Shown here: one piece after another, positions 47,620-64,000 of the stretch
Position numbering within the stretch: the stretch's first letter is position 1
How the letters are laid out: every line of letters begins with the position of its first letter
From: Phlyctochytrium arcticum
Taxonomy: Eukaryota; Chytridiomycota; Chytridiomycetes; Chytridiales; Chytridiaceae
Assembly (NCBI GenBank): GCA_025602905.1
Contig: JAHLKI010000013.1
Span: forward strand, 558,001 to 622,000
Length of the DNA: 64,000 nucleotides
Reading direction: 5' to 3'
Notes under the pieces: model-generated
What the model was told of the DNA's origin: nothing
Seen by the model: the letters and a program-made list of their open reading frames with translations, nothing else
The model's database searches: none
Made by a program: the position numbers and the translations under genes

Positions 47620-48288
47620 TCAAGAACCGCGACACTTCTTCTCGTGTGTCTTGGTGTTCGATGAGCTTGACATCGTTCGACCGCATTTGGTGCAAGGCCT
47701 GTTGTTGACGTGTACGTTCAGGTAGTGCCTCCGTGCCTGAGCCGCGGTGGGATACGTGAGGGTACAAGTGGTTTCCTCGCAAGGGTGTGTGGGCGCGGCC
47801 GCTCCCACTGCCGGGTGAGCACTGGCCGGGTGCTCGACCATCGACCTTTCTCCGCGCACGAATATGGGCACCTGTTGCACAGAAAGGTGCGCCGTTGCCA
47901 GCTCACATCTTTTGGCACTCGTTACCATGACCGACGCTGTAGGTCTCAGGGGATCTCGCTCCACAGAATCCCCAGGTTGCGTACTCGAACGACCGGCACC
48001 CTTGTCTAGACCCTTATGGCAGTACTGGACGTGTGTGTCCGGGATCTGCTTGCTAGGAAAGGATGCAACGCATCCAGGCATCCCACACTTGAATGGCTGT
48101 GGTTTGTCACAGTGCGCAGCATTCTTGACAAGAATGCTGCGCACTGTGACAACCATGAGAGGAGGTCGGCGAGAGTGAGGGGAGTGTCCTCGTCGAAGCC
48201 CTCCGGCGGGCCCGTGGCGCGCGAGGAAAGCGAGGAAGTCATGGGTAGCTGATCGCTGACAGGCACTGAGGGTGAGCAGAAGTTCCAT
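47620..48288 (-). CDS. C2H2 zinc-finger protein
   Basis: From the first ATG in frame (48288) this is 222 codons. Zinc-finger patterns are FKCGMPGCVASFPSK with THVQYCH, HPCEETTCTLTYPTA with RRHYLNVH, and RPCTKCGRTM with THEKKC, the last ending the protein. The linkers between finger 1 and finger 2 are long, so it is not a tandem array. Upstream of finger 1 the frame crosses a 49-bp hairpin (48104-48152). It could be a DNA-binding regulator or a relic of a transposon-encoded protein; it may also be 5' incomplete. Confidence 0.55.
   Translation of the reverse strand: MELLLTLSACQRSATHDFLAFLARHGPAGGLRRGHSPHSRRPPLMVVTVRSILVKNAAHCDKPQPFKCGMPGCVASFPSKQIPDTHVQYCHKGLDKGAGRSSTQPGDSVERDPLRPTASVMVTSAKRCELATAHLSVQQVPIFVRGERSMVEHPASAHPAVGAAAPTHPCEETTCTLTYPTAAQARRHYLNVHVNNRPCTKCGRTMSSSSNTKTHEKKCRGS
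48104..48152. repeat. Near-perfect palindrome, 24-bp arms
   Basis: TTGTCACAGTGCGCAGC-type arms 48104-48127 and 48129-48152 are exact reverse complements around a single central base. It lies inside the zinc-finger ORF. The outer 15 bases resemble those of the palindrome at 49553-49612, with four transition differences. Confidence 0.85.
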
Positions 48289-48801
48289 AAATGCAGCAGC
48301 CGTCGTTTTCGTTGTTGGTCGTTGATCTTTTCCCTTGAACGTCAAATCTTTAGCCAAAAAGTTAGACTCGGAGTCGGAGTCTGTTAGAGACAGTCATCAC
48401 GGAAGTGGCGCAGTTTGGGCCATCAACTATTTCGCGTCACGCTCGCAAGACTCGCAAACTGGGATTTCACGAAGGATCTTGACCAAGATGGCTCTCAGTG
48501 ATACAAGAGGTGAGGTGGTCGTTTCTGGAGGCAAGTGCAAGCATCAATTCGTCTTGCGGCAACGTCCTGGTGTTCCGCGCGGATTTTGAGCCTTTGAATG
48601 CGCCCGTTAGGGAGTGTTCAGGGGCAAGATGCTTGCTAGTGCGAAAACGGCAACTCTCCGTCTGGCGATGACATCCCGACAGTCACGCGCGGAGATTGAC
48701 TTACTTGGTGTGGCCGTTGGGGCGGATCTGTGAGGAGCTGCCTGACGCCCGCCCCTCTTAGCCTGTGATTTACGACCTTCTTATTTTGCTAACCGCTCCA
48801 T

Positions 48802-49567
48802 TTGAAAGATCCTCTTTGCACTGCTCTGATCACATTCCGCGATACAGTTAGCCCGTCTGAATGGCGGATTGTGAACACGGTAGACTTTTTCATCCAGAAA
48901 AAGGTCGAGTATCAGTCACCCGAAAAGGTTCAAGACTTTCTGTCGACGGTGTTCAATACCAAAGAGGAACCATTACTTTCCGCCCCCAAGAAAAATAAGG
49001 TGAAAGCCGCTTCATTTCGAAAAGCTACAGGAATTCGCCTGAACGCGGAAGTACTTGATGAGGAGATGACTCGCTGGAAAAATCACGTTAGTATACTTCG
49101 TATTCATCTCCAGAAAGCTTCCCTAATGACCCCCTCATCACCTTCAGGATACTTGCACCAAACTCAAGAAGTCTAACGAAGCAGCAGCCAAGATATTGGA
49201 GGAACAATTAGAAGCTACCGAACTTCAAGCCTCATTACAACTTTTAAACGAAAACAACAATTTCGAGTCGTACGGACCGACCAAATTAATGGTAAAACTT
49301 ATTTTAAAACCTTTTGTTTGTTTGCCATATACTAAGTAACCGGACCGGCTGAAGGTGAAGAATCGGCAGATGAGATCGGACTCAAATGCATCAGCTCCGA
49401 AAAGTACATCTCCAGTATCAACTGAAAAGTGCCCGCGTGCATCCGAACTCCCAGCTTGCACCTTTGATCCGTTCGTGGACGAGGACGAACACATTGTGCT
49501 GACTAAGAGACGGAAATTGAACTTCCCTAACCTCGCGACTCCAGAAAAACCTTGTCATAGTGCATAA
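48802..49567 (+). CDS. Unidentified intron-containing gene (5' end not found)
   Basis: Three exons join in frame: about 48811-49086, 49149-49290 and 49355-49567. The introns are GTTAGT...TTCAG and GTAAAA...GAAG. The product has a helical N-terminal half (SPSEWRIVNTVDFFIQKKVEY), a Glu/Leu/Asn-rich segment likely to be coiled coil (AAAKILEEQLEATELQASL) and a Lys/Ser/Pro tail. An acceptor-like TTTGAAAG precedes 48811, so a first exon with the ATG lies upstream but was not identified. The stop codon at 49565-49567 falls inside the 60-bp palindrome. The function is unknown. Confidence 0.5.
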
Positions 49568-49612
49568 CAAATCCCATAGTATATACTATGGGATTTGTTA
49601 TGCACTATGACA
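49553..49612. repeat. Perfect 60-bp palindrome
   Basis: Positions 49553-49582 are the exact reverse complement of 49583-49612, with no spacer (centre CATAGTATATACTATG). It contains the stop codon of the preceding gene and marks the point where the DNA becomes AT-rich, so it may be the boundary of the virus-like element or a fused pair of inverted terminal repeats. Confidence 0.95.
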
Positions 49613-50130
49613 GTGGCTATATGCCAGCTATGTGCCAGCTATGTGCCAGCTATGTTCCAGCTATATGCCAGCTATTTGACCAGCTATATGCCAGCTATTT
49701 GACCAGCTATTTGACCAGCTATCCATCTCAGGTCGCTCCATCGAATATCGAGTCATCTTACAAATCACGAGTCATCTCCCTCCATTACTCATCGAGCCGA
49801 GCCGCCCCTCTCACGGGACTTCCTCACTACACCATATCCATCTCAAGTCGCTCCATCGAGCATCGAGTCAATCTTACAATTTTGTGTCATTCCTCTCCAT
49901 CAATCATCGAGTTGTTTCGCATTCCCTACGGGACTTCCGCTTACGTAAGCATCCTCTCTCATCTCCTCACATTCTATCCAAAAAAGCAACGACCCCCGGG
50001 GAGAATCGTTGCCCTCCTTCACAGAGGTACCAAGTTTCTCTTTTAGTGACCTTGGTTAAGACACTGTCTCGAATTTGAATCCAATCACTCCATTTCTAAT
50101 CGAGTTAGACTTTTTGAGGGTCGCCTTCCT
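49613..50130. repeat. Short tandem and dispersed repeats
   Basis: 49615-49720 is an array of CCAGCTAT units spaced 11-15 bases apart. From 49735 to about 50145 the blocks ATCGAG and CGGGACTTCC recur (the latter near 49816, 49929 and 50131). A frame through this region encodes only the repeat and is not a gene. Confidence 0.7.
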
Positions 50131-50734
50131 ACGGGACTTCCAATCCTTTTATAAACATTTTCTATTATCGATAAAAATCAATTCTCTTTTATCGATAAAA
50201 CTACACTTCGCAAACTTGCATTCTATAGAATCTCACCATTCAACTACTTCTCACTAATTGAAATGTTCCATTTTACCACTTTTCGTGCTAAAATTACTCT
50301 TTTCTTGTCAAAATCTTCCTAAATACACCCTTTTCACACTTTTTACCCTTTACTTTCTCATTTTTGGGTCACCACTTTTCGAAATTCTTTTTGTTTTTTA
50401 CAGTCCTCCCCCTTTTTTTTCACTTTCAAATACTGTTTTTTTTTTCCAATACCTCTTTTTAAATTCCGTCTAAAGTCGCTAACCCACTGACCCAATTTTT
50501 CTATCGAGTCAAATTTGAATACATATTCAAAATATTTACGTCTTCAATATATCTAGTACCAAAATGTTTTATACAAGCAAACATCGAGCGCACATTCTAT
50601 ACTCATTTTGGGTCAACACCTTTTTGCCACTTTCACTAACTAAAATGTTCCATTTATACCCGTTTTGTGAGTTTTTTAACCACACCAGTATAACCCGCAA
50701 AACTCGTCTCATCTCAACTCTATCCCTACAAAGT

Positions 50735-51450
50735 ATCGAGCTGACATTGTTCGCTTCTCTCCATTTTTTCCCCTCCATACATAGATGTACAGATGCAGTT
50801 TTGGCTGCCGGGAAAAAAAACACTTTTTAAATTTGTACAAGCTCTGTGAACTTTTTTTTTTTGGTTTTTTTTATTTTGACCCTAAATCTATCTGTACATC
50901 TGTACATCTGTACATTTTATATTATCTCTTCATAAAATACTCTTCATATAATATTCAATATTTTATTCTTTACTACATAATCACTCCATGTACAGATAAA
51001 AGTACAGATGAAGTACAGATACAAAACACTCTACATATATCCTTCTCTCACTCAACTCTATCTGTACGCCTACATCGCTTATCGAGCCGATATTGTTCGC
51101 TTCTCTCCATTTTTTTCCCTCCATACATAGATGTACAGATGTACAGATGTACAGATGCAGTTTTGGCTGCCGGGAAAAAAAACACTTTTTAAATTTGTAC
51201 AAGCTCTGTGAACTTTTTTTTTTTGGTTTTTTTTTATTTTGACCCTAAATCTATCTGTACATCTGTACATCTGTACATTTTATATTATCTCTTCATAAAA
51301 TACTCTTCATACAATATTCAATATATTATTCTTTACTACATAATCACTCCATGTACAGATAAAAGTACAGATGAAGTACAGATACAAAACACTCTACATA
51401 TATCCTTCTCTCACTCAACTCTATCTGTACGCCTACATCGCTTATCGAGC
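50735..51450. repeat. Direct duplication of about 350 bp with TGTACAGAT arrays
   Basis: 50735-51087 and about 51081-51450 are nearly identical. Each copy contains GTACAGAT units near its start and the inverted form ATCTGTAC (three units) about 110 bases later, then single units in direct orientation. The copies differ mostly by the number of 8-base units. They lie immediately downstream of the stop of the TV-Pol/helicase gene. Confidence 0.9.
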
Positions 51451-51463
51451 TCATACAATATTC

Positions 51464-53947
51464 TTACTCACCATCTATCGGTCGAGCGACGGTGATACTA
51501 ATTGGTGTCCCATTGTTACGATGTTTGCTTTTATAACTAATTTGGACAAACTTACGAATTGTCCTTGAGAATCCAATCTTTGACAATTCCCCACTGGCTT
51601 TTCTCCCAGCAAAACCCGAATCCACAAACTCTCGATACACCCTGAACAATACATCTACTGAAGTATCATATGTTTCCCCAACTTCAAAGTACAAGTCTGG
51701 TAATGGAGCGCCCTTACATTGTTCATCTGGGTGTTCCAATTTGGCATTTTTCCGGTATGCAATATTGCCTTCCAATAGCTCGTCTGCAAATAACTCGAGG
51801 GGGGTTTTCGCCCATATTTTCATATCATGTTTCTCTTCAGTTTCAGGAATGTTTCGTACATTAAAGGACGATAAATCTTTTTTCATGAGATAGGTGTAGA
51901 AATGGTCGGCGGTTTCATCTGTTAAGGTGGCAGCAAGTTCATTAAAGTATGAATGATTATTACGATGTACGCTGGATGTTCTCTTAACATAATATCGACG
52001 GTCCGTGTCTTCGATACGCATGCAATCATCATGGTTGGAAAGGAAACAAAGGTTCATGTAGTCATCAATCATGATAGGGTCGACACCTTTTTTCTCCATT
52101 TTTTGCCAGGCTTGGGTAACTTTGGATTTAATGATACTATTGGTGCGATAACCTCCAGAAAATGAAATTTCATCACCAAGGACAAAGATTTTGGCAGTGG
52201 AAAGCGAGGTGAATTGTCCCGTTAAGTCATCCAAATTGTTCAAATACAAATAATGGTCTCTTCCAATGATTTTTTCACCAAAAAATTCATACGGCATATT
52301 CTTACCAGTGCCTTGTTGACCATATGATATAAGCGCTGTTCTGTTCTTATCTGCGGGATGTTGTACAATTGAGGCTAACCAATTGATGTTATAATCAAAA
52401 TGTTCTTCCACCCCTCCATTTAATACAAATTTAAAATGATTCAGCAAGGGAAGAATCATTTCCTCGTCATATTCTACGAGTTGTTTCGCCTTAAATCCAC
52501 GGAAAAGGTTGAGTTCATGTCGAGGGATGTCCCCTACATAGGACGGGTTCATAACAATATTCTTAAATGTGAGTATATTTTCACTTGAATTCCAAAAGTC
52601 GAAAATTGGTTCAAGTTTTATACCCGGCCTTTTTCCATTTTTTCCCTTACTTTTCACCTCTATGTGAAAATGACTCAATGCATCTCTGGTGGGGAATTTT
52701 CCCCGAAGCAACCATGGTACTGATGGCGAATCTCTCCAGCAATAGAATACAGTGGATTCGTGTGTCACTTTTGCAAGAAAGTTATTGAGGTATGTGATTG
52801 CAAGGTATTTGCGTTTTTTGCCAACTGCATATATCTTGTTCAATTTTTTGACATTAAATGTGTCATTCTTTCCAATAGGATAAATCAATTTTTGAGCATT
52901 GTTTTCCTCATCCTCTTCATCGTCACTATCCTCTTCATCGTCACTATCCTCTTGTTCCTGTTCATTGAGATGAAGTTTTGTATAGAATTCCTCAGAAACC
53001 TTCATAGGTTTGATTGCGAGTTTTATTTGTAGATATGTATCCTGTTCAACAAACTGTGAACACTTTGATAACAATTCATCGCTAATCGGTTTGAGTGGGT
53101 TCTTCCGCACTTGCAATCCATCAAATGTAAGCACATCACTTGACAAGTTTTCATTAGTGAAGAATTCCCGCATTTTTTGAAGAGATTGATTTTCACATGT
53201 TTGCATAACCAGACTTAAGAAACTCCCTTCAAGATTTCCTTTGATAACTTTCTGTCGAGAAATGTTTAAATGTTTCCATAATTCGCTCCAAAATGTGGAG
53301 TTGCCTTCTTGAAGACTGGGGACTAACTCCCGATATAATGCAGAATGAATCTTTTTGAATCTGACACTTTTTGGTTTGCTATTGGCATTCAAAAGCATTG
53401 CTAAAACACCTTTTTTCGACTGTTTCTCTTCTTGTAAAATTTTCTCACGATATAGTATATATTCTTCCAACTCTGGGACGTCTATATTCGCTTGTTTTAG
53501 AATTTGATACATAATCGTAGGCATGCTATTCACTTGGTCAATATCATCGTAAAACTCTCCGCACAAATATGCTCTAACATCTCTCGGAAAAGATTGAAGT
53601 CCGATTCCATTCCGACAAAACATTCTACCGCTCTCATTGATGGAATATTTTGAATATGTATATTCTACTCGGAATTGATTCTTGCCAACGTGACAGTCTT
53701 TGTAATAACGTTTCAATTTTTGACGCACTTTGCTGTCTACATATTTGTTCCTCATAAGAATGTGAAGTCTATCTTCGTTGCACCACTCAATCAATGTTAC
53801 AATTGTCGGCATTTGCGCATTGTCAACAGGAAATAAACTATCGTCGTGTTTTATCTCTGTGGCATCAACATGTTTTTCAAGTGGAACAGGTTGTTCATCA
53901 TTGTCATCGTCGCTGTCTAGTTGCAATTGAAACATTTTTTCTGTCAT
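51464..53947 (-). CDS. TV-Pol-like polymerase fused to SF3 helicase
   Basis: One exon of 827 codons with AT-rich codon use. N-terminal half: FYDDIDQVNSMPTIMYQIL (about residue 133) is a polymerase motif A of the type seen in transposon-virus polymerases related to family A; KKGVLAMLLN fits motif B and DVLTFDGLQV (about 272) motif C. A repeated acidic linker (DSDDEEDSDDEEDEE) separates the halves. C-terminal half: Walker A GQQGTGKN (about 543-550), Walker B KIFVLGDEIS (about 592), and sensor motif LCFLSNHDD followed by DTDRRYYV, the layout of a superfamily 3 helicase of the DUF5906 kind. Such fusions are the replication proteins of transpovirons, some polinton-like viruses and related elements. 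The Walker Lys is followed by Asn rather than Ser/Thr, which also occurs in this branch. Polymerase activity is inference. Confidence 0.85.
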   Translation of the reverse strand: MTEKMFQLQLDSDDDNDEQPVPLEKHVDATEIKHDDSLFPVDNAQMPTIVTLIEWCNEDRLHILMRNKYVDSKVRQKLKRYYKDCHVGKNQFRVEYTYSKYSINESGRMFCRNGIGLQSFPRDVRAYLCGEFYDDIDQVNSMPTIMYQILKQANIDVPELEEYILYREKILQEEKQSKKGVLAMLLNANSKPKSVRFKKIHSALYRELVPSLQEGNSTFWSELWKHLNISRQKVIKGNLEGSFLSLVMQTCENQSLQKMREFFTNENLSSDVLTFDGLQVRKNPLKPISDELLSKCSQFVEQDTYLQIKLAIKPMKVSEEFYTKLHLNEQEQEDSDDEEDSDDEEDEENNAQKLIYPIGKNDTFNVKKLNKIYAVGKKRKYLAITYLNNFLAKVTHESTVFYCWRDSPSVPWLLRGKFPTRDALSHFHIEVKSKGKNGKRPGIKLEPIFDFWNSSENILTFKNIVMNPSYVGDIPRHELNLFRGFKAKQLVEYDEEMILPLLNHFKFVLNGGVEEHFDYNINWLASIVQHPADKNRTALISYGQQGTGKNMPYEFFGEKIIGRDHYLYLNNLDDLTGQFTSLSTAKIFVLGDEISFSGGYRTNSIIKSKVTQAWQKMEKKGVDPIMIDDYMNLCFLSNHDDCMRIEDTDRRYYVKRTSSVHRNNHSYFNELAATLTDETADHFYTYLMKKDLSSFNVRNIPETEEKHDMKIWAKTPLELFADELLEGNIAYRKNAKLEHPDEQCKGAPLPDLYFEVGETYDTSVDVLFRVYREFVDSGFAGRKASGELSKIGFSRTIRKFVQISYKSKHRNNGTPISITVARPIDGE

Positions 53948-54146
53948 TCTGAAATGTTGAACAACTTTCCTACTTATACAACAAGAGTTTTATTTCCTTA
54001 AATAACAATTAAACGCAACATCGACGTTTTGCTCATATTCAGTCATAACCTCGGAAGATGATTCTTCCAAACGCAAACAAATGTCACACTCAATTCATAT
54101 TTAAAAAGATACTAAAATAGTATAGCATTATTTTAATATTCTTGTA

Positions 54147-54332
54147 ATGGCCGGATCGAAAACCATCTACACAGCAGTTGTTACTTTTCTGGGACAAGAG
54201 ATAACTGTGGAAGCACGGAGCATTCGCCAATTGGCATTGAAACTCGGTGTGTCCCATCCAACAATCCATAAAATGCTGAAAAATCCCCAAACAACTAGAA
54301 TGAAGGCACGTATCAGCGAACGGCCTAAATGA
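54147..54332 (+). CDS. Small helix-turn-helix protein
   Basis: 61 codons. A helix-turn-helix is suggested by SIRQLALKLGVSHPTIHKML near residues 27-46. It is basic and the right size for a DNA-binding regulator. The stop overlaps the next start by 4 bases (ATGA at 54329-54332), a packing typical of viruses and not of the host genes. It is divergent from the helicase gene, so it may regulate the shared promoter at 53948-54146. This is inference. Confidence 0.6.
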   Translation: MAGSKTIYTAVVTFLGQEITVEARSIRQLALKLGVSHPTIHKMLKNPQTTRMKARISERPK

Positions 54333-54724
54333 TTAGAGTATATCCGCAAGCAATTCGTTCAAAACATAGAAAAAAAAAGAAGGCCCAATGTCAAATGGCT
54401 GATTTTTGTAAGAAACATGGCATTCTTGTCCAAACCGTTTCTGGAAAGGATGATTCTGGAAAGGATGATTTTTATGAGAAACGTGATATGTGTGTCGAAG
54501 AAGTTTATCCGGAATCGCTAAAAAGAGAGATTATGGATGAAATACTTGATAAATTTGATGAAGGAACGTTGACACACAGAGGGACACCGGTAACAAATCC
54601 CAAACAGGCGTATGCAATGGCACGTGCGATTGCCAAAAAGAAATGGCGGGAACGATTTATGTTACTAGTATTGAGAAACCCCGGTACAGCATTTTCTATT
54701 TATGGTGAATCATCATCTCGTTGA
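54329..54724 (+). CDS. Small basic protein with DUF6496-like motif
   Basis: 131 codons overlapping the previous ORF by 4 bases. The N-terminus is strongly basic (RSKHRKKKKAQ). The C-terminal part has DEGTLTHRGTPVTNPKQAYA followed by MARAIAKKKW, resembling the short G-T-L...V-T-x-x-K-Q-A-x-A-I-A motif of small proteins in phages, virophages and large DNA viruses. The role of these proteins is not established; they are often structural or DNA-associated. The assignment is from motif memory only. Confidence 0.55.
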   Translation: MIRVYPQAIRSKHRKKKKAQCQMADFCKKHGILVQTVSGKDDSGKDDFYEKRDMCVEEVYPESLKREIMDEILDKFDEGTLTHRGTPVTNPKQAYAMARAIAKKKWRERFMLLVLRNPGTAFSIYGESSSR

Positions 54725-54924
54725 ATTTTGAATGTTCCAAGTTTTAAATCTTTATATCTCATATGACATGGAAAGCACCGAACACGATTTTTTTTGTAAA
54801 GATTGTAAATTGTACAATCTGGATTGTCCCTTGAGAAATCTTTACAAACACGACATCCTTCTGGGACAATGGGAGTGCCATCTGTGTTAAACTTGACTTG
54901 ATATGGCGTTGAATAGATAGGCAT
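54700..54924 (-). CDS. Small zinc-ribbon-like protein
   Basis: 74 codons with CRVCKDFSRDNPDC and, after a short spacer, CFPCH, a C-x2-C...C-x2-C arrangement suited to one zinc ion. It overlaps the 3' end of the convergent small basic protein gene by 25 bases. The function is unknown. Confidence 0.5.
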   Translation of the reverse strand: MPIYSTPYQVKFNTDGTPIVPEGCRVCKDFSRDNPDCTIYNLYKKNRVRCFPCHMRYKDLKLGTFKIQRDDDSP

Positions 54925-55399
54925 TTCCTGTATAATATGGTATACTTAAAATAGTACAAAAGAGTTTAAATATAGCATGCACATCGGACATTATTGATCG
55001 TATGGTTTAAGGATACCAATAATAAACTTTTCCCTTTTTGAGGGTCAAGTCGTCCCATGTTGCGCCTCATTTCTCCATGTTGCGCCTCGTTTGAATGTTA
55101 TAAGGGAGGGTCTCCGGGCATCCCCCCCGGTATTTGAAGACCTTCCAGCACAGCCACATATTCTAACCCGCGCAGCTTTTTTCCCCATCAATGATCAACC
55201 TCAATTTTTTGAAGCTTTATTAGTCTAGAATCAGTTGTAGTGATTATTTAGGCTAGGCTAGAAGTCGTTTTTCAATATATCATTTCTCATCATTCTCACA
55301 TCATTCTTGCATCATATTATATCAATAAACGTTTAATCGATAAAATTTTTATTGTTATAAAAGGTATAGTATACTATACCGAACAAAATAGCTGGCAAC
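54925..55399. other. AT-rich spacer within the virus-like element
   Basis: It contains the direct repeat CCATGTTGCGCCTC at 55055-55068 and 55075-55088, and TAATCGATAAAA near 55335, a motif also present at about 50165 and 50192. A TATA-like GGTATAGTATACTATACC palindrome (about 55362-55379) lies just upstream of the recombinase ATG. Confidence 0.5.
55362..55379. promoter_or_regulatory. Palindrome upstream of recombinase, possible promoter or operator
   Basis: GGTATAGTATACTATACC is a perfect 18-bp palindrome ending 20 bases before the recombinase start codon. Either a TATA function or binding of a dimeric regulator would fit. Confidence 0.45.
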
Positions 55400-56404
55400 A
55401 TGTCTCTCATACAATTCCTAAACAATCAGGCAAAGTCTTTCAAAGCTGATAATAAAAAGGTCTTAGAGTACGAAAAACGAGGAATATTCAACAAAGATGT
55501 GTTTTTCGATATTGATGTAGTCAAAAGTCGCATCCAAGAAGTACACGGTGGAAATCTAGCAAAGAAATCTCTCGCTGATTATCTCGGCCTAGTTCGGCGT
55601 ATATTGAATAAAGCCGGTTATCAACACTGGGACTTACCGGAGGAAGAATTAAAAAATCTTGTCAAACGATACGATGTTTCCATTCACGAACTTCGCAACT
55701 CGACTCCGCGATATAATGGTCTTCCGCAACCCACGGACACCATAAATTATGAAGAGGTTGTAAAGAAGATGTTGGAAAAGTACGAATCGGTCGAATACAT
55801 TTATGATAAGCACGAACCAAGCCTTGAACAAATCGACGAATTACAAAATGTGATAATTGGTTTAGTGCCAGTTTTATTTTTCAATGTTCGAGCCAATTAT
55901 ATGACTTGGAAAAACTTTTATCACGAGAATGTTTCACGGTCAGCAGATAACATACTCATAGCGGACAATTGCGGAAATGTTACTCTTCTTTGGAATGAAC
56001 GGAAGCAGGATAGAATAAATGCTACTAAAAGAAAACGAGACGAATCGGTAGTCGATGATGAAGTTGTTGACACAAAATCATTCATTCAAGCGATGAGCAA
56101 ACTCCCGTATGATTCAATCAAAGGAGTAAACCCTGTCAAAATGGCGAGAATCTTGTCAAAGTTCTTTTGGCGATTTCGAAAGGATTCTGAATATATTTTT
56201 GTTGATAAAGAGGGTTTACCCTTCAACAAAAATACTTTCCGGAAACGGATAATTGAAGCAACCGGACACGGAATCGCTGAGTTAAGACGGGCACAGATTA
56301 CCTATATCAGAAAAGAACATCTCAGCAACGATGCGCGTCAATGGCTGGCTCTTCAATGTCATCATTCAAAAAGCGAAAACGACCTCTACAACAGAGATGC
56401 GTAG
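55400..56404 (+). CDS. Tyrosine recombinase (integrase)
   Basis: 334 codons without introns. The catalytic fold is indicated by an Arg in VLFFNVRANYM (about residue 163), a box II segment AELRRAQITYI (about 291-301) with the Arg-Arg pair, and CHHSKSENDLYNR at the C-terminus giving the second His and the nucleophile Tyr (about 330). The N-terminal part resembles the SAM-like core-binding domain (YLGLVRRILNKAGY). The usual first His of H-x-x-R is replaced by Glu, as happens in divergent recombinases. Such enzymes integrate virophages, polinton-like viruses and Crypton-type elements. The gene stops 16 bases before the convergent chromodomain gene. Confidence 0.8.
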   Translation: MSLIQFLNNQAKSFKADNKKVLEYEKRGIFNKDVFFDIDVVKSRIQEVHGGNLAKKSLADYLGLVRRILNKAGYQHWDLPEEELKNLVKRYDVSIHELRNSTPRYNGLPQPTDTINYEEVVKKMLEKYESVEYIYDKHEPSLEQIDELQNVIIGLVPVLFFNVRANYMTWKNFYHENVSRSADNILIADNCGNVTLLWNERKQDRINATKRKRDESVVDDEVVDTKSFIQAMSKLPYDSIKGVNPVKMARILSKFFWRFRKDSEYIFVDKEGLPFNKNTFRKRIIEATGHGIAELRRAQITYIRKEHLSNDARQWLALQCHHSKSENDLYNRDA

Positions 56405-56419
56405 ATAGAAAATAATATA

Positions 56420-56935
56420 TCATCTTGCTCCATCCTCGTATTCTTTTACCAAATCCATAACTTCTGTAAGATTGGAAAGCGTTTCCCATGTATCGTCTTT
56501 TGCAGTGTAACCTACCCACCGTACTTTGTAGTATTTTTTCCTTTTCACAATCTTTTTATCAACAATAAAGTCAACTTCATAGAATCCAGGCCTATTAACG
56601 CGCATAGATTCTCTTGTCGCTCTAGGTAGAGATTGTCGAGTTGGTTGAGGCTCCTCCTCTTCTTCTGCTGCTTCTTCTGGTGGTGTTATTAAATCATTTG
56701 GTACGGTTTCTTCTTCATCCTCAACATTGTCCTCATCATCTTCTTCAGCGTCACTCGATAATATGGGAGGAATTGGCAACAGGGAAGTCCTTGGAAATCT
56801 CCCATAAACAATTCCATTGTCCCCGGATATGCGATAAGACGGTACAAAATTCGGATATGTAGAATTAATTCTTTGAGATATTGTATAAATTTGTTTGTCC
56901 CAGAAACCGAGAAGACCAGGTTTTCGCACCACCAT
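56420..56935 (-). CDS. Chromodomain protein resembling a truncated retrovirus-like integrase C-terminus
   Basis: 171 codons from an ATG at 56935, with an in-frame TGA a few codons upstream. Residues 1-55 (VRKPGLLGFWDKQIYTISQR, then SYRISGDNGIVYGRF and RTSLLPIP) resemble the SH3-like DNA-binding domain at the end of Maverick/Polinton or Ginger-type DDE integrases. An acidic Glu-rich linker follows, then a chromodomain (FYEVDFIVDKK, KRKKYYKVRWVGYTAKDDTW). No catalytic DDE core is present, so either this is a stand-alone targeting protein or the 5' part was lost at the junction with the fibre-like ORF. Chromodomains in integrases steer insertion to methylated histone H3. Confidence 0.6.
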   Translation of the reverse strand: MVVRKPGLLGFWDKQIYTISQRINSTYPNFVPSYRISGDNGIVYGRFPRTSLLPIPPILSSDAEEDDEDNVEDEEETVPNDLITPPEEAAEEEEEPQPTRQSLPRATRESMRVNRPGFYEVDFIVDKKIVKRKKYYKVRWVGYTAKDDTWETLSNLTEVMDLVKEYEDGAR

Positions 56936-58194
56936 TCGAGTTCAACAGTTTTAACTCACATAGATTGTCCATCAAATACGACAGTGATACTTTAGAGATT
57001 GATGGGGGACAATTGAAAGTTAAGGAAAAAACTTTTGAGTTCCCAATGTATCGAGATGACGATACGGTAGGTATTGCTATAAAAACACCGCTATACATCT
57101 CCGAGCAAGGAATTTGTCTAAATGCAATACCACCTTTCACTACAAATGAAGAAGGTGCGCTAAAACTAAACATTGATGAAGACACGCTTGAAGTCAAAGA
57201 TGATAAACTTTTTGCGAAAGCACAAGATGCGACAAAACTTTTGAAAGGTGCTGGAGCAGTTTCTGTTTATACGGACCCGCTCGAAAGTCTTGAAGGGGCG
57301 ATTGTAAAATTAAACGTGGATGATGAAAATTTCCAACAGAGTGGGGGAAAACTTGCTTTTCGCTCCACGGGATTAGGAGAAATTCCATACGACTCAGGGC
57401 TCTCTTCATTAAGACGGAGCGATGCATTTGTTTATAATGAGACATTTCAACGATTAGAAGTTCCGCATGTATTTCTATCGCAGAATTTCTCACCAGATAG
57501 TGATGAAGCAGTGACAAGTTCATATGTTGAACAATTATACCAAGCGGGGTCTGGAGTTGATATATCAGCAAAGATAAATTCGAGTCGCGATATTTCTATA
57601 CGAACTGACGCAAGTTTGGCTATTGATGTTAATCAAAATTTGAGTGTGAATCCTAGTGCTTTTGTGAATAATCAAAGTATTCGAGTCAATAGTGAAGGAA
57701 AACTCACCAGTGGATTGCTTTTCCAGTCAATAAACAGCTTAGGCATTCGAAATGGTAATGAAGTATTCCTTGACTTACACACTGCAGGGAATCTTGAATT
57801 TGATGGCGAAGTTCTAACGGACACTCGAACATTCGGAAACGGCTTGCACGAGAATAGCAGCCACGAAGACAACTACACACTCGACCTCCCAAGTGCCATC
57901 CGCGCGCATCCGACCTTTCACGTCAGTAAACTGAAACCCTACATCGACCCCCAAGAGAACTTCCCCGATCGACGTGTTGACCCACGACCAGAACCACAAC
58001 TTCTCAACGACGAAGCTTACTACGAAGTTGAACGCATCGAAGCCCACCGCAAGTTCAGAAACCAACTCAAGTTTCTAGTCAAATGGAAAGGGTATCCATC
58101 CGAAGAAAACACGTACGAACCAACACAGAACTTCAAAGGACCTGCAGCCATTCAGATCCTTCGCGACTACAAGACCAAGAACAACATACGCTGA
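56881..58194 (+). CDS. Fibre-shaft-repeat protein fused to a Ty3/gypsy integrase tail
   Basis: A 437-codon frame that has no ATG at its 5' end (it opens after TAA at 56866 and the nominal start is TTG). Residues about 20-320 contain repeats of the adenovirus fibre-shaft type: DTLEIDGGQLKVKEKTFEF, ALKLNIDEDTLEVKDDKLFA, AIVKLNVDDENFQQSGGKL. From about 57840 the composition shifts abruptly and the frame continues as YTLDLPSAIRAHPTFHVSKL, then EVERIEAHRKFRNQLKFLV and WKGYPSEENTYEP, the C-terminus plus chromodomain of a chromovirus integrase. I read it as a 5'-truncated attachment protein joined by recombination to a retrotransposon end. Whether it is expressed is unknown. Confidence 0.7.
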   Translation: MYKFVCPRNREDQVFAPPFEFNSFNSHRLSIKYDSDTLEIDGGQLKVKEKTFEFPMYRDDDTVGIAIKTPLYISEQGICLNAIPPFTTNEEGALKLNIDEDTLEVKDDKLFAKAQDATKLLKGAGAVSVYTDPLESLEGAIVKLNVDDENFQQSGGKLAFRSTGLGEIPYDSGLSSLRRSDAFVYNETFQRLEVPHVFLSQNFSPDSDEAVTSSYVEQLYQAGSGVDISAKINSSRDISIRTDASLAIDVNQNLSVNPSAFVNNQSIRVNSEGKLTSGLLFQSINSLGIRNGNEVFLDLHTAGNLEFDGEVLTDTRTFGNGLHENSSHEDNYTLDLPSAIRAHPTFHVSKLKPYIDPQENFPDRRVDPRPEPQLLNDEAYYEVERIEAHRKFRNQLKFLVKWKGYPSEENTYEPTQNFKGPAAIQILRDYKTKNNIR

Positions 58195-58650
58195 CGCTCG
58201 CTCCTAAGTAGGGGAGTGTAACAAGCTGACTGCGCAATCACTTGTGAGTTTCAAGGCGCGTCGCGCAGCGCGTGCTGCGCAGTGTCTCGTGTCTTTTCTT
58301 TTCTTCACTGCCCAAAGTATATAGCGTACGGTAGTCCCCCTTCCCCCCGTAGCTTGACCGACAACTGCCCACAGAACTCTACTAGCTCATTTGTACATTA
58401 CACTGAACAACGTTATACTTTACCAATGGAACATCGTCCCTGCTAATCCTGTTATACGGTTCCTGGACCAATTACTCTCAACCTGCTAGGAACCTGTCAA
58501 GAAAGACATGTAACATCTTCCTATTAGCCCCTAACAATCCATAACCACCACCCATTAGACTTCTAAACTCTCCTAACCACTAAGTTCCCTAACGCACTCC
58601 CTAACCTTCCAAACTCCAAATCCCCAGAGGTGGCGCGAGTCTGGCGCGCC
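57840..58650 (+). mobile_element. 3' remnant of a Ty3/gypsy chromovirus with LTR
   Basis: Integrase tail and chromodomain (to the stop at 58194) are followed by a polypurine tract AAGTAGGGGAG and then TGTAACAAGC at 58217, the usual start of a chromovirus LTR. The LTR probably ends before the AT-rich sequence returns near 58680, but no clear CA end or target duplication was found. The 5' nine-tenths of the element are absent. Confidence 0.7.
58217..58650 (+). repeat. Putative 3' LTR (right end uncertain)
   Basis: It starts TGTAACA right after the polypurine tract, and contains GC-rich inverted stretches GCGCGTCGCGCAGCGCG (58256-58275) and a 9-bp stem GGTGGCGCG...CGCGCCACC (58627-58651). Confidence 0.5.
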
Positions 58651-58897
58651 ACCTATGCAGCAGTCTGCATTGACGTCGAATATCAATGTTCCATCCGTTC
58701 GATACTTGTCGGATTTCAATGACACGGCGAGTACCGTCATTGCCACGATAGTACCGGACTCATTCCTTCACCAATGATTCAGAATGGTTGCCTTGTCAAG
58801 ATACGATTAACAAGGTCGAGTTTCACCTTATTGACTCACAAACCGGTGAAAGAGCTCGCATTAAACTCACCATTAACAATTAGATCCTTAGTTGCGG

Positions 58898-59420
58898 ATG
58901 ACATTTCGGATGTCCAATAATCAAATCAATTTTTTTTTCTGGGACCATAACGAAAATGAGCTACCAAGTGACACTGTACAGGACACTGTAGAGAAGAGTG
59001 TAGAAGAGACTGTACAGGACGCTGTACAGGAGACATCTACCTCATCTGTACCAATTGTTAATGAGAAGGAAAAGAAACAAAAACCAAGCATAATCGAAGC
59101 ACAACGAGAACGAACTCGTCAATTAATTAATTAAAAAAGATGCAAAAGAAACGCGATGAAGAGCGTCGAATCAAAGAACGCAAACGTATTGAAGATGCTT
59201 ACAAACTCGTGAATGATATGGAAGATAGGAGCCTCAAGAAAAGCAAGAGAAGAAAGAAGAGCGTGCATGTAAGAAAGCCGAACGTGAAGCAACAACGAAT
59301 ACCAAAAAGAAGCGTGTAGTTGCTCCAAAGAAATCAGTTGCTCGAGATCCGGTCAGATCCGGTCAAAGTCCTATCGATTGGACCAACCCCGGTCATAGGA
59401 ACCCGGTCAGTGTCACAGTG
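58898..59420 (+). pseudogene. Broken gene for a charged coiled-coil protein
   Basis: ATG 58898 opens a frame with Gln/Val/Glu repeats (DTVQDTVEKSVEETVQDAVQ) ending at a TAA in the AATTAATTAATTAA run (59121-59134). The same character continues in other frames: MQKKRDEERRIKERKRIED from 59140, then KKKRVVAPKKSVARDPV to about 59360. Two or three frameshifts are needed to join them. AT content matches the virus-like element, so this is probably its right-hand gene, cut off by the retrotransposon remnant. Confidence 0.45.
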
Positions 59421-60010
59421 AGGGGACCGTAAGTCTGATTGAATGTAGATAGACAATAATAGTATAGCCAAAGTTTGGAAGAAAATGATCTGGTATGAAA
59501 CAGTGATAAACATGGCCGGGGGCGTGTAATGCTCCTAAACTGACTAGAAAGATCCAGGGACATGCCAACGCCATTGGTGTGATCCAGCAGCTTGTGCAGG
59601 CAATTTCCTGCGTGCTCATGTGCCAGCCCTCTATTGTGGGAGTGACGGTGTTAGAGTCCGTGTCAAGGAAAAACAACATGAAGAAATCTTACCATGAGAT
59701 CCGGATAATAGGTCGCATCTGAAATACAGGCAGCAGTGCGCACTCCCAAGACATACCGAGTGGACATGAGAGGAGTCCGACAACCGATTGGACACAAACA
59801 CCGCTGGCAAAACGTGTTTTTAGTGTAGGACCCACTAAATCGAATCTCCAAACTGCTCCCTATGTTACTTGAGTATGTTTTCCGAGCCGTCGTAGCAAAG
59901 GAAGCAAAGGAAGAAAACTCCCCTGACCAATCGTAGCCCCCTGGATAAGCTGGAATGAAGACCCGCAGCACTGATGACCCTGTATGGCATTTCAACCAAA
60001 GCAGGGGGCA
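59413..60010 (-). CDS. Weakly supported spliced ORF, Cys-containing
   Basis: Two minus-strand frames can be joined through an intron with GTAAGA donor (about 59694) and ATAG acceptor (about 59632). The joined product has Cys-rich stretches (TFCQRCLCPIGC, IACTSCWITPMALACPW) but no start codon I trust and no known domain. It may equally be noncoding. Confidence 0.25.
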
Positions 60011-60360
60011 AGGCACGGCCATCTTCATCCAAACCACGAGCAAGCGGGGAGGTTGACGAAGCAAGCTCGAATCTGTTGGGAAAACAGACTCTTACGTTGC
60101 TTCGTTCGGTTGGCCGCAGGTCATGGGTTACCCAGAGGCGGCGACTGGAGCGAGAAGACCAGAACTGATGACCCTGAATGGCAATTCAACCAGAGCAGGG
60201 GGTAAGTCTGAGCACGACTCGTCCAAACCACGAGGATACGGGGAGGTCAACGAAACAACTTTGAGCCTGCCGGAGAGCAGACTCTCATTGCTCGTAGGTT
60301 GGCCGCAGATCGCAGGTCGCCGAGAATGGACAAGGGAAGGTGGGCAGAAGCAGCAGAACG
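59971..60360. repeat. Tandem duplication, about 194-bp units
   Basis: Unit 1 begins CTGATGACCCTGTATGGCAT at 59971 and unit 2 begins CTGATGACCCTGAATGGCAA at 60165. The units share further blocks such as AGCAGGGGG, CCAAACCACGAG, GGGGAGGT and GGTTGGCCGCAG in order. They have diverged by perhaps one base in five. Confidence 0.75.
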
Positions 60361-60701
60361 CGAAAGCGTGTCTATGTATCGCCCGTCGCGTCGCCAGGGC
60401 AGCGAGATAATGGCACAGTCATCCGAACATCCGCGCCACATTGGCATGGCGCAGCCATGTAATGTCATTTTCCCCCGTCTGAAGGTCTGAAGCGCGTCGC
60501 GCGACGCGTACCGTCAAAGCTCAGTGCATCTGGTCTACCATCTTCACTTTCCACCAATCGCATTTTCAACTCCATCTCATTAATCGATCATCGCCGTCAT
60601 CCCACCTCCTTGTTGTCGTCAATCCACCCTCCCGTTCTCCATCGTGACACTACTTTGTTCTCGGTCCCCATATTCCATCGTCACACTGGTTTGTCCTCAA
60701 G
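60065..60701. other. Upstream region of the 60702 gene
   Basis: It contains the second unit of the tandem duplication and the GC palindrome, then a C/T-rich stretch (60540-60690) typical of fungal promoters and leaders in this window. Confidence 0.4.
60493..60508. repeat. 16-bp GC palindrome
   Basis: CGCGTCGCGCGACGCG is a perfect palindrome; a closely similar GCGCGTCGCGCAGCGCG lies in the LTR at about 58256. It is upstream of the gene starting at 60702. Confidence 0.5.
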
Positions 60702-62582
60702 ATGAATGTCGTTATCAACGAATACTTCTGCGCTCATGACTACCTTGAGTGGACGATTCGCGGATGCCTGGAACAGATCGTAACGAAGCAGCCGCCAGGC
60801 GACGCCGCAAAGGCAATCCATGCGATGCAAGCGTATATCTCTTCCTCAATTATCAACAATAAGTCGCTGAAGAAATATGCCGCGAACAAAGGACAAACTC
60901 TCCACAAGTGTCTCTGCACCGAGGATATGCTTGCGTCATTCCAGACGCTGCTCCGAGCCATTGACGCCAATGAAGAGAAGCGCTTGTTGGACCTGGCCAC
61001 TGCAGCCGAAGCCGCTTGCAACAACGCTGGCTTCCAGCTGGTAGCAGAGCAAGGGATTCGACAGGCCTTGGGCTCCAGGACCGCCCACGCAGCAAACATC
61101 GTTACGGTAAGATCTTCGTCTCATTTATTGCTGGCTGCTAAAAATAACGTATCCCTATCTTCAGGGACCCCGTGTCGAGAGCGAGACGGAAGAGGTCCTT
61201 CTGGAAGTCCCACCAGAACCGAAGGACGGGTGTGGCCTGGCGAAGGCGGTGCAAGCCATCGAACAGGCACATGCCGGTATGGACGCCAGATTCAGCCTTT
61301 TCTGGAATGTGCTGGATCTGAGAGACGAGCAGGTCGAACCGCTCAAGGGAAATCCTCGAGCCGACCAGTTTGTCGACGGCGCGGCCGACGAAAAGCAGCT
61401 TGATGGAGTACGGGAAAGGATCTTGATGCTCATGCGGCAGGGCAAGGGGATGGTTTCTAAGTCGGTAAACGCGTATCTCACCACCATATCGTCCTTGATT
61501 TTGGACGCCGAGTTCCCGCTCACAATCGCTTGCCTTGCCGCCCGGGTCAAGATGGGGGGAGTAATTGCAGTGATTAAATTGCTGCGGGAGGAGATTGAAA
61601 AACTGGACGATGCCGAACATCGAGCGGAGCTACTGCAGCTTGCCCAAGAGATTGACCCGAGGGACGAGGACACCCAATGGGTGAATCTCCGGTGGGTTGA
61701 TTTATGTGACGCGGTCCAGCTCAACACCAGATTCTGCTCCGAGAAGACTGTCGATTCATATTATTTGGAGGGGTTTCTGAAGAAGCGTCCCACCACAACT
61801 CTTTTCGGAGAATTGGCGTCGTTGGCAGAGAAACAGGACAAGACCGGCCGTGGGGACGACCCGGGCCGAGCCAAAAAATGTGACTACGTGGTGGTCATGC
61901 AGAAGGAAACTCACCGCAAGACCTTCATTTACGACGAGTTGAGTGCGGGGGAGAATGCAGGGCGGGTGGGACTTAGTGCTCCCCATTCCGAAGAAAACTT
62001 TCTGGATGGCATGAAGGTGGCTCGCGCCCAGTACCGGACCATCCTAGCCGATGTCAACACCAAGTTGACAGAAGGGAAAGCCGCGAAGATGCTGCTGAAC
62101 AAACTCGGCATCGTTTACCTCCAGGTGATTGACCTGACAGTGATCTTTCGCGTGCTGGTGGGCGTGCGAAAGGAACTGTTCGCCATAGCAGATGTCGGTA
62201 CGGCGAATATGCCAGAAACCATCGAAGACGTGGACAAGGCCATAAAGACGATGGAAAGCTTCCTGGTGTATCACGTAAGTCGAAACCGCACTCGGGAAGC
62301 GTGTCTTCGTACTCACTTTGTGAATCGTAGAACCTGACTAGGTCTACCCGCTCGACCTGGCAAGAAGCTCGGCGAGTGGCAACTTTGCGGGGCAGAACCC
62401 CCCCTCCTCCCAAAAAGCGTCTGTCTCTTGCATCTGCCATGTCCTTGGACCGTCCGAGTGTACATCCCGCCAAGCGCACCCGCATCGTCAGTTCGCACGG
62501 TGACGCGGCTCAGGATGCCGCTGGCCCTTCCTTGCCGCTCCCCCCCCATACCCCAGCCGTGAAGGATGCCAGGAGACGTTAA
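60702..62582 (+). CDS. Unknown protein with possible RIIa/Dpy-30-like N-terminus
   Basis: Three exons, 60702-61106, 61165-62274 and 62331-62582, joined by GTAAGA...CTTCAG and GTAAGT...CGTAG, give 588 residues. Residues about 5-40 (INEYFCAHDYLEWTIRGCLE, then QIVTKQPPGDAAKAI) resemble the helix-turn-helix docking and dimerisation domain of PKA RII and Dpy-30 proteins. The body is helical and charged, with QVEPLKGNPRADQFV, YYLEGFLKKRPTTTLFGEL and IAVIKLLREEIEKLDDAEHR. The C-terminus has PPPPKKRLSLASAMSLDRPS and AKRTRIV, likely a nuclear signal. No enzyme motif is seen. It might be a lineage-specific accessory gene; copies elsewhere in the genome would be expected if it is mobile. Confidence 0.7.
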
Positions 62583-63443
62583 TTCGCAGCGCATCGGACG
62601 GTTCCTTCCCCCTTGTGCATATCTCGTCTCTGGGATTGTTTCTTTTGTATTTATTCTTTGTCGCATCTCGGTTTCAATATTCACTTTCGTTTCTTGTCTT
62701 TCAACTTAAGAAAAGCATTATTTTTTCTCAGCAATGCATGTCAGGTTCATGCAAATTATACAAATCGAGCACGGCAAGGCTCGCCCGCGTGATGCCGAAA
62801 GATGGCCCAAGGGAGGGCGAACTTATGGGTGAAAACTTGAAACAGTACGGCGAAGAGAATTCTGTTTTGTTTCCTTCCTGTAAGATATTCTTGATGGAAT
62901 CCAGCGGATTCAGTGGTGTTGCTCTGGGACAAGTGGGACATTCAACCAGTGCGTGGTGCACACCCCGCGGCGTTCAACTTTCGACGGCGGGCCTGGTGGT
63001 TTCTAAATACTTGAACCAAGAAACCTCCCAGACCTACTCAAACTCTCACCAATTTCCACTCACCCCCGCATAACCTCCTTTGCAAATGGAACAACAGCAA
63101 CAGGCACGAGGACCGTCTCGATGTGATGGTACATCTTACGACTTTACCTGTAATGAGCAATTATACATGGAGCAAACTTATTGAAGACAATGAGAGGAAG
63201 GGCCGGGATTCCACATGAGCAGCAATCTTCCGCAATCATAGTTTAATGGCGTTTCGTCCCAATTCTCTACTATCCGATCGACGTCCATCACGGAAACGAA
63301 ATAAATCATGATCGCCACCGTTCTCAAATTCGAGGAATCGCGACGCTAGCCATTTCTTTGCTGCCTTTGCTAGCTTTACGACAGTTATCGAATGTCAAAT
63401 CTGCACTAAAAGCTTTGTTTCAGGTTTCTAAACCAAATGTAAG
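62583..63443. other. Intergenic region
   Basis: A 152-codon plus-strand frame at 62615-63073 has a hydrophobic start but no ATG-context or family support, and lies directly after the stop of the preceding gene, so it is probably 3' untranslated sequence. Nothing else was recognised. Confidence 0.35.
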
Positions 63444-63984
63444 TCACTGATTGAATAACATACTGGCATAAACCGCAGCAGTCGGGGTAAATTCGAAAGC
63501 GACTTCCGCAGCAGGGAACTGGAATTGTACTTGACGCCGAATGTCAAGCATCAGATCAGGCACTGACAGGCAGTTCACCTGGAATTGTACTTGACGTCGA
63601 ATGTCAAGCATCAGATCAGGCAGTTCACGAGGTGTCGACCGGGCTCTGCCGGAACCATCAACTGGTATGACGAATAACACTCTTTTCCGAAAAAGATGCT
63701 CTCATCAATCCGGTGCTCGATCAACTTGTTATGTCCCTGGAAGATCGCCCGGAGTTCCAGTATGGTAATCGGGGTTCGTTGAACGCATCCTTGAATACGC
63801 TCGACGTGGCTGAAGGTATCATCACAGGAGCTTGAAAAACTTCTTCCTCACATGGATATATGTTACCCGCTGGATTGGATGAGAAACTATCGATGAAGTG
63901 CCCGATTCCACCGGTTGCGAGGAAGTATTTGTTAGTTAACCTCAAGCTGCGCACAAATGTTGCAGTTGTTAATGATCTGCACAT
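63444..63984 (-). CDS. Possible exons of an unidentified minus-strand gene
   Basis: Two minus-strand frames, 63721-63984 and 63444-63680, have protein-like content (KYFLATGGIGHFIDSFSSNP; PDLMLDIRRQVQFQ repeated twice; AEVAFEFTPTAAVYASMLF) and could be exons of one gene that continues past the right edge. I could not find a clean splice join. No family recognised. Confidence 0.3.
63521..63640. repeat. 60-bp tandem duplication
   Basis: GGAATTGTACTTGACG at 63521 recurs at 63581, exactly 60 bases later, with about 50 bases of near-identity. In the minus-strand frame it gives a 20-residue repeat and keeps the frame. Confidence 0.85.
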
Positions 63985-64000
63985 TCGATCGACGTGAAAC

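Follow-up and report, generated by a model that had tools for sequence, protein, structure and literature searches.

The 64-kb window of the Phlyctochytrium arcticum genome analysed here very probably carries, at positions 49553-59420, the left part of an integrated and decayed polinton-like virus (PLV) that, by sequence comparison, belongs to a chytrid group with a replicase of the family-A polymerase/SF3 helicase (PolA-SF3) class. The whole element spans 19.1 kb, from 49553 to C13:626669 on the same contig, beyond the window. The original prediction had placed a viral block at 49553-59420; its start was correct, and its end lies further out. The predicted presence of an integrated PLV in a chytrid-type fungus was supported by genome-wide stretches matching the polymerase (42), the predicted major capsid protein (MCP, 47) and the packaging ATPase (49), and by MCP kin in chytrids.

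Terminal inverted repeats (TIRs) delimit the element. The left TIR (49553..51790, plus strand, 2,238 bp) overlaps the polymerase gene in its final ~108 codons, and its partner lies at C13:624413-626669, beyond the window. The two repeats are 99.8% identical over 1,826 bp (2 mismatches, 2 gap openings) and 98% identical in the first 1,148; this identity may stem from gene conversion, so it gives no firm date for the insertion. The termini are TG...CA, and both are directly flanked by AACCT, a 5-bp target duplication that, taken alone, would arise by chance in roughly one case in 1,024. The flanks on both sides are non-viral and lie inside an 855-kb contig. Among the PLV features tested, the 2.24-kb TIRs, the short target duplication and the replication module of PolA fused to an SF3 helicase (PolA-S3H) were present in the element, and an A32 ATPase and a complete rve integrase were found in relatives only. 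The TIR also contains an imperfect tandem duplication of ~362 bp (50783..51455, plus strand; repeat families D1, D4 and D6). Scans of the 64-kb window for tRNAs (with the bacterial code) and Rfam families each returned 0 matches.

The 827-aa replicase gene (51464..53947, minus strand) encodes a predicted fusion of a family-A DNA polymerase and an SF3 helicase. In the modelled protein the PolA fold occupies residues of about 49-318 and the SF3 fold residues 378-819, and the protein matched Pfam DUF5906, in agreement with the TV-Pol-like polymerase and SF3 helicase first proposed; we take this domain layout to be the one named "TV-Pol". The gene is open and conserved (dN/dS 0.083 in one comparison, with dS saturated). 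In IMG/VR the polymerase query retrieved 1 remote locus at 23% identity (19 pattern stretches). A Pfam scan of 7 window proteins and 10 proteins of a fuller relative on contig C4 contained no PolB family, and a Polinton/Maverick or adintovirus identity, which calls for a protein-primed PolB, does not fit the PolA-SF3 replicase.

The interior of the element is broken and mixed. The integrase-like chromodomain protein noted originally is a truncated rve integrase that retains its C-terminal part and chromodomain but lacks the catalytic core (56420..56935, minus strand). At a junction at 56926..56932 this gene is fused to a fibre gene, and the MCP, ATPase and adjoining genes are absent; neither MCP nor ATPase had a match anywhere in the window, as the first reading of this DNA had already reported for capsid and packaging ATPase genes. 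The predicted fibre-shaft protein is fibre-like, although not intact, since the gene piece (56926..57868, plus strand) lacks its N-terminal part. Next to it lies the 3' piece of an LTR retrotransposon present in many copies (57863..58456, plus strand; Tf2-1 SH3-type domain and chromodomain), 88-92% identical to 16 other places among the matches listed. At 58628..59342 (plus strand) pieces of a minor-capsid-like gene and of a basic-protein gene are what remains of a second PLV, from a different subgroup; its basic protein matched L073 (51.5% over 33 residues, E 9e-7) and did not match the L062 protein. Host-like DNA, richer in GC, follows between the two TIRs (59343..64000, plus strand) and runs past the window, which shows an abrupt change in GC content. 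The host-like stretch is single-copy as tested to 63900. Apparent exons of a gene were seen at ~60702-62337. The TIRs thus enclose no less than 4.5 kb of single-copy DNA that looks non-viral; a simple deletion fails to explain it, and this counts against the main reading.

A non-autonomous derivative, mobilised after its decay by the integrase of fuller copies, is conceivable, and we would put its chances at somewhat under even. The near identity of the TIRs despite the broken, mixed interior favours such late movement, as do shorter spans between matching palindromes at C7:648173-652802, C22:135890-140343 and C32:295777-304336. However, gene conversion can keep inverted repeats alike, and searches with the stretches 57800-59420 and 59330-63900 turned up no further copy sharing this interior.

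The left terminus is a perfect 60-bp palindrome (49553..49612, no strand) with the outer motif TGTCATAGTGC/GCACTATGACA and a TG...CA end. Genome-wide, a degenerate end pattern gave 129/130 matches, compared with 0/1 in the control. We read 11 pattern-found sites in full, a few of the ~129; their interiors differed, yet 194 of 198 interior arm positions were complementary. Two sites chosen by palindrome search (L015 and L019) were left out of this figure, and their addition gives 246/250 for 13 sites. The sites read are near-perfect palindromes of 47-87 bp, with insertions mirrored in both arms (60 versus 62 bp forms, 47 versus 67 bp forms). Their outer 11 bp, TGTNAYAGTGC, were fixed by the search pattern, yet were found independently of it at 49553. 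On contigs C1-C2, 3 of the 12 places with letters examined were one-strand matches, two of them asymmetric. A listed palindrome lay within 25 kb of 5/7 integrase relatives of at least 45% identity; for palindromes of the outer motif the corresponding counts were 4/9 for more distant integrases and just 1/8 for MCPs of the 41-47% group. A separate proximity test counted genes of one element as independent, which overstates its strength. A 47-bp palindrome of a different family lies outside the element (48105..48151, no strand), with a 98% copy on the far side at C13:628095-628141; apart from this palindrome the outer arm (C13, window positions 47900-49552) is single-copy, hence it has no inverted copy in the opposite arm.

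In IMG/VR the TGTC-type pattern retrieved 6 stretches, all short of true palindromes with 6-20 mismatched positions in the arms of each, and the TGTG-type pattern retrieved 0 stretches, so free viruses gave no example of these ends; here they are known from integrated copies only. Terminal hairpins have been reported in giant viruses (PMC12747079, available portion). The open-access texts of PMC7805220, PMC12220804, PMC11071308, PMC7031253, PMC6723459 and PMC10120064 do not mention hairpins or palindromes as PLV or virophage ends, and the strings 'hairpin' and 'palindrom' are absent from the main text of PMC7805220. Perfect palindromic ends of PLVs are apparently unreported in the literature searched.

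Complementary arms despite differing interiors would fit hairpin-ended or self-primed replication. We tentatively suggest that the terminal palindromes are hairpin ends for finishing a linear genome, with arms kept complementary by fold-back copying. With more confidence, we hold that linear viral DNA was probably inserted by an rve integrase, encoded by the element itself until it decayed or provided in trans by fuller relatives; the window copy can encode at most the replicase and small proteins, and integrase and capsid would have to be borrowed. On the tentative hairpin model, each palindromic end would fold into a hairpin and so close or prime the genome end, allowing a polymerase without a protein primer to complete the linear genome, and fold-back copying would preserve the complementarity of the arms while the interior sequence drifts. 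For chytrid PolA-SF3 PLVs as a whole the same model, held just as provisionally, is one of hairpin-forming ends in which the outer 11 bp would be used by the rve integrase, and fold-back copying would maintain an interior that drifts freely but stays self-complementary.

Alternatively, the palindromes may never form hairpins and be merely paired integrase-binding sites, two inverted copies set back to back for rve insertion. The outer 11 bp do finish in TG/CA at the insertion point, and rve integrases are encoded by both close and more distant copies. Paired binding sites need conserved sequence, however, whereas the interiors vary between families and stay self-complementary, mirrored insertions included, and we consider this explanation unlikely. 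Poxviruses have hairpin telomeres and parvoviruses have terminal palindromes. The chytrid ends resemble both in being terminal self-complementary sequences able to form a hairpin; they differ in being seen in integrated copies only, and no nickase or telomere resolvase was identified.

A 334-aa putative tyrosine-recombinase-like protein (55400..56404, plus strand; 14 matching stretches in the genome) might resolve palindromic junctions. Its frame is open, with dN/dS of 0.15-0.21 in four comparisons. The assignment as a tyrosine recombinase, made originally, was confirmed by no profile: the protein had no match in Pfam, PDB-sequence or HHalign comparisons, was not among the matches of a PF00589 scan of the genome, and its family scored a probability of 0.1% in HHalign against four same-genome frames found by PF00589. 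A structure model was unusable (pLDDT 38), and IMG/VR gave 0/6. The 131-aa protein (54329..54724, plus strand), called HTH in the original prediction, had no Pfam match and a weak match to PHROG 50 (E 0.0024); its DNA is 92% identical over the gene at C3 and C6 (L042 and L044). The 74-aa Cys-containing protein (54700..54924, minus strand) is zinc-ribbon-like by eye and matched no significant family, and the DNA of its gene is conserved in several copies.

Fuller relatives occur in the same genome. The relative at C4:902501-917500 has an rve integrase (PF00665, E 2e-13) with a chromodomain, an A32-type packaging ATPase (PF04665, E 5.8e-10, above cutoff), and MCP-family, minor-capsid-like and fibre genes. 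Its MCP frame is itself split in two pieces; of the 9 other loci examined, 6 have MCP frames of 412-417 aa, and some genome copies have full-length capsid-family, ATPase and integrase frames. The relative's MCP matched Pfam Capsid_N at E 0.014, under the cutoff, and the MCP profile found no relative in the PDB (best E 0.39). No maturation protease family was present among ten scanned proteins of the C4 relative, and IMG/VR gave 0/7 for the ATPase and 0/31 for the MCP alignment.

Capsid-type, ATPase and integrase genes persist in relatives within this genome, and the break in the window copy falls within its integrase gene. On its gene content the window copy is therefore a decayed copy and not a capsidless lineage; of the two options first offered, decayed or capsidless, the former holds. 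An autonomous, transpoviron-like lineage that never had capsid genes is very improbable. It would account for a window without MCP or ATPase matches and for a replicase and 334-aa protein that are open and apparently constrained, but not for a truncated integrase joined to a fibre gene without a start, and relatives that share the 334-aa protein, integrase and fibre also have capsid-type genes. Transpovirons fuse a PolB palm to an SF1 helicase (PMC11071308, available portion) and have TIRs of 380-520 nt (PMC7031253, available portion). The window copy shares with them TIRs and the lack of capsid genes; its replicase is instead PolA-SF3, its capsid block has been lost and its integrase is truncated, and we rejected the transpoviron identity that had been entertained. 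Sputnik-type virophages and PolA-S3H PLVs, as described in the accessible part of PMC11071308, resemble the element in the fusion of a PolA-like domain to an SF3 helicase.

The element adds a member to an already known group and is not a new lineage, because kin are recorded in Spizellomyces (Bellas and Sommaruga 2021) and Powellomyces ("chytrid MELD virus"); the earlier description as new or barely described is apt in its second term only. The available text of PMC7805220 (Bellas and Sommaruga 2021) describes a PLV group in Spizellomyces punctatus and notes PLV genes in Allomyces, and NCBI taxa 2707315-2707320 are 'Powellomyces chytrid fungus MELD virus 1-6'. Shared with the S. punctatus group are a chytrid host, integration and an MCP 68% identical to SPPG_02195, assumed to be the published element's protein; one element is reported there (PMC7805220, available text), whereas P. 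arcticum has tens of matching stretches. The likeness to the Powellomyces viruses was assessed by MCP alone (66% to 'hexon [Powellomyces chytrid fungus MELD virus 5]'). Our literature search found no paper on polintons in Phlyctochytrium, capsid viruses in Gaertneriomyces or chytrid 'MELD virus'. An assembly artefact or a contaminant joined to the fungal contig, which the abrupt GC change and the proneness of viral repeats to misassembly might suggest, is scarcely credible given the TIR pair with its 5-bp duplication, the non-viral flanks on both sides and the tens of matching stretches over many contigs.

Very little is known about DNA viruses of fungi. According to the available portion of PMC10640383, fungi had no known dsDNA viruses. 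Here a single fungal genome holds tens of PLV gene copies, and the window copy shows how a virus turns into a capsidless element through loss, as opposed to having ancestors that lacked a capsid. If the hairpin model is true, it would represent a protein-free solution to end replication for primer-dependent PolA-SF3 viruses, similar to that of poxviruses and parvoviruses and unlike that of PolB polintons. The genome-wide set of palindromes offers a direct test of linear-end replication in polymerase-A PLVs and their virophage kin.

The left edge of the original prediction, which had placed an integrated element at window positions 49553 to 59420, was retained, but about half of the element, a decayed polinton-like virus (PLV), lies beyond its right edge. 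Part of the left terminal inverted repeat (TIR), 49553-50700, pairs in inverted orientation with C13:625502-626669 at 98% identity, and AACCT is found immediately beyond each outer end. Because the TIR partner and AACCT place the right end at C13:626669, the element is 19,117 bp in a host genome of 31.5 Mb in 91 contigs, of which the window covers C13:558001-622000. The TIR extends to 51790, ending within the polymerase gene; the left and right repeats differ by two mismatches and two gap openings in 1,826 bp, with 363 bp of the right repeat outside this comparison. GC content is 0.33-0.39 across window 50-57 kb and at least 0.45 beyond 58 kb. Insertion of the integrase (rve) type would account for the TG...CA ends, the 5-bp duplication and the integrase genes, all of which support it. 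Rejoining the flanks gives a frame that stays open for about 100 codons across the insertion site, weakly suggesting that the PLV entered a coding stretch.

A fuller relative in the same genome (C4:902501-917500) encodes a replicase, the 334-aa protein also present in the window, an rve integrase (446 aa, with a chromodomain), an HNH protein, a major capsid protein (MCP) family gene, one basic and one minor-capsid-like protein, an A32-type ATPase and a fibre. Its MCP frame is split into two pieces; frames of 412-417 aa occur at six of nine other loci examined (L064-L067, L070 and L073; none at L068, L069 or L072). An HNH/AP2 homing-endonuclease-like gene adjoins the relative's MCP gene (L061:6171-6710, numbered within the extracted locus). 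The window copy is collinear with this relative as far as 56926, within the integrase, and homology restarts within the fibre; MCP and ATPase queries had no match within the window. Because window 53935-54978 is 92% identical to copies on C6 and C3 (its first 0.4 kb 96% to C2 and C25), while the polymerase stretches of these copies are only ~40% alike to that of the window, the replicase looks to have been exchanged as a module.

Between the TIRs, window 57863-58456 is the end of a multicopy LTR retrotransposon. Minor-capsid-like and basic-protein pieces at 58628-59342 share 71% DNA identity with C19:521251-521940 and, as proteins, match L073 better than the C4 relative; they belong with another PLV subgroup. 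The DNA at ~59.3-63.9 kb is single-copy except for two weak partial matches, with a gene structure that is intron-like by eye, and from C13:622910 as far as the right TIR the sequence is non-viral-like (GC 0.43-0.57). Both TIRs of one insertion enclose GC-rich, intron-like DNA from window 59343-64000 to about C13:624400, single-copy where tested. It may be host DNA, captured or secondarily inserted.

The 334-aa protein (window 55400..56404) had been labelled a tyrosine recombinase, and no profile backs this label. The protein is conserved: its dN/dS was 0.15-0.21 in four comparisons, and R, K, R, H and Y are held at motif-like places in relatives down to 34% identity.

The first 60 bp of the element form a perfect palindrome, found at both ends, with a predicted single-strand fold of -30.6 kcal/mol (z -14.5). 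Head-to-tail repeats of 11-12 bp (CCAGCTATNTG-like) lie directly interior to it at 49613-49722. We searched the genome with AGTGCN{20,50}GCACTRTNACA, which matched 129 times on the forward and 130 on the reverse strand (0 and 1 for the reversed pattern as control). Among 100 matches listed, 94 represent 47 two-strand sites and six were one-strand; of three one-strand places whose letters were examined, the matched span is asymmetric at C2:210361 and C2:1044842; at C2:6665 a shorter palindrome can be made out by eye. Past the outer 11 bp, which the pattern fixes, arm positions were complementary at 194 of 198 over 11 sites (nine listed two-strand sites on C1-C2 plus window 49553 and 48105), and these interiors fall into about six dissimilar families. 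Two more perfect palindromes, in L015 (87 bp) and L019 (sequence identical to C1:1550947), are a biased sample, having been picked by palindrome search. Six stretches from IMG/VR that share the outer motif served as an outside control and had 6-20 arm positions mismatched each. Candidate non-autonomous elements, with 4-9 kb between matching palindromes, are found at C7:648173-652802, C22:135890-140343 and C32:295777-304336.

On C1-C11, a listed palindrome lies within 25 kb of 13 of 18 polymerase, 10 of 22 MCP and 11 of 20 ATPase genes. Random means were 2.0-2.2, and values as high arose in 0 of 5,000 draws. The draws took minimum lengths for six contigs and treated genes of the same element as independent, which they are not. 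Proximity differed by MCP subgroup (3/5, 1/8 and 5/7, two fragments excluded), so at least one MCP group is mostly without this end type; by integrase, it was 5/7 for close and 4/9 for distant relatives. A 47-bp palindrome of a second family flanks the element at window 48105-48151 (1.45 kb away) and C13:628095-628141 (1.47 kb); the left arm DNA beside it is single-copy, and the pair may mark an outer element that the PLV entered. This family also brackets C6:97321-133912, where the arms measure 6,162 and 6,163 bp.

Genome-wide, matching stretches numbered at least 42 for the polymerase, 14 for the 334-aa protein, 47 for the MCP, 49 for the ATPase and 111 for the rve integrase; the integrase figure also counts fragments and cross-matches to LTR retrotransposons. 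Stretches do not equal elements, as split genes occur and a long repeat can hold one gene twice (polymerase at C24:306760/323277, integrase at C9:368752/377924). Because four loci (C26:372241, C17:454417, C41:120798 and C18:179868) share open 417-aa MCP frames and an identical MCP-to-ATPase spacing of 1,961 bp, another PLV subgroup may have spread recently.

Because interior sequence varies but symmetry does not, the palindromes require an explanation other than rve insertion. Fold-back copying, of the kind seen with hairpin telomeres or self-primed replication, would keep the arms symmetric as interiors vary, and a PolA-SF3 replicase without a terminal protein would require some device of this kind. 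The main rival to this proposal is that the symmetry is that of an integrase site. The MCP family is already on record from chytrids. Palindromic PLV ends were not found in the texts searched (PMC7805220, PMC10120064, PMC11071308, PMC12220804, PMC7031253 and PMC6723459); PMC12747079 reports terminal hairpins for giant viruses. The element joins a known group as a new member, and its palindromic ends set it apart as a variant absent from the texts searched.
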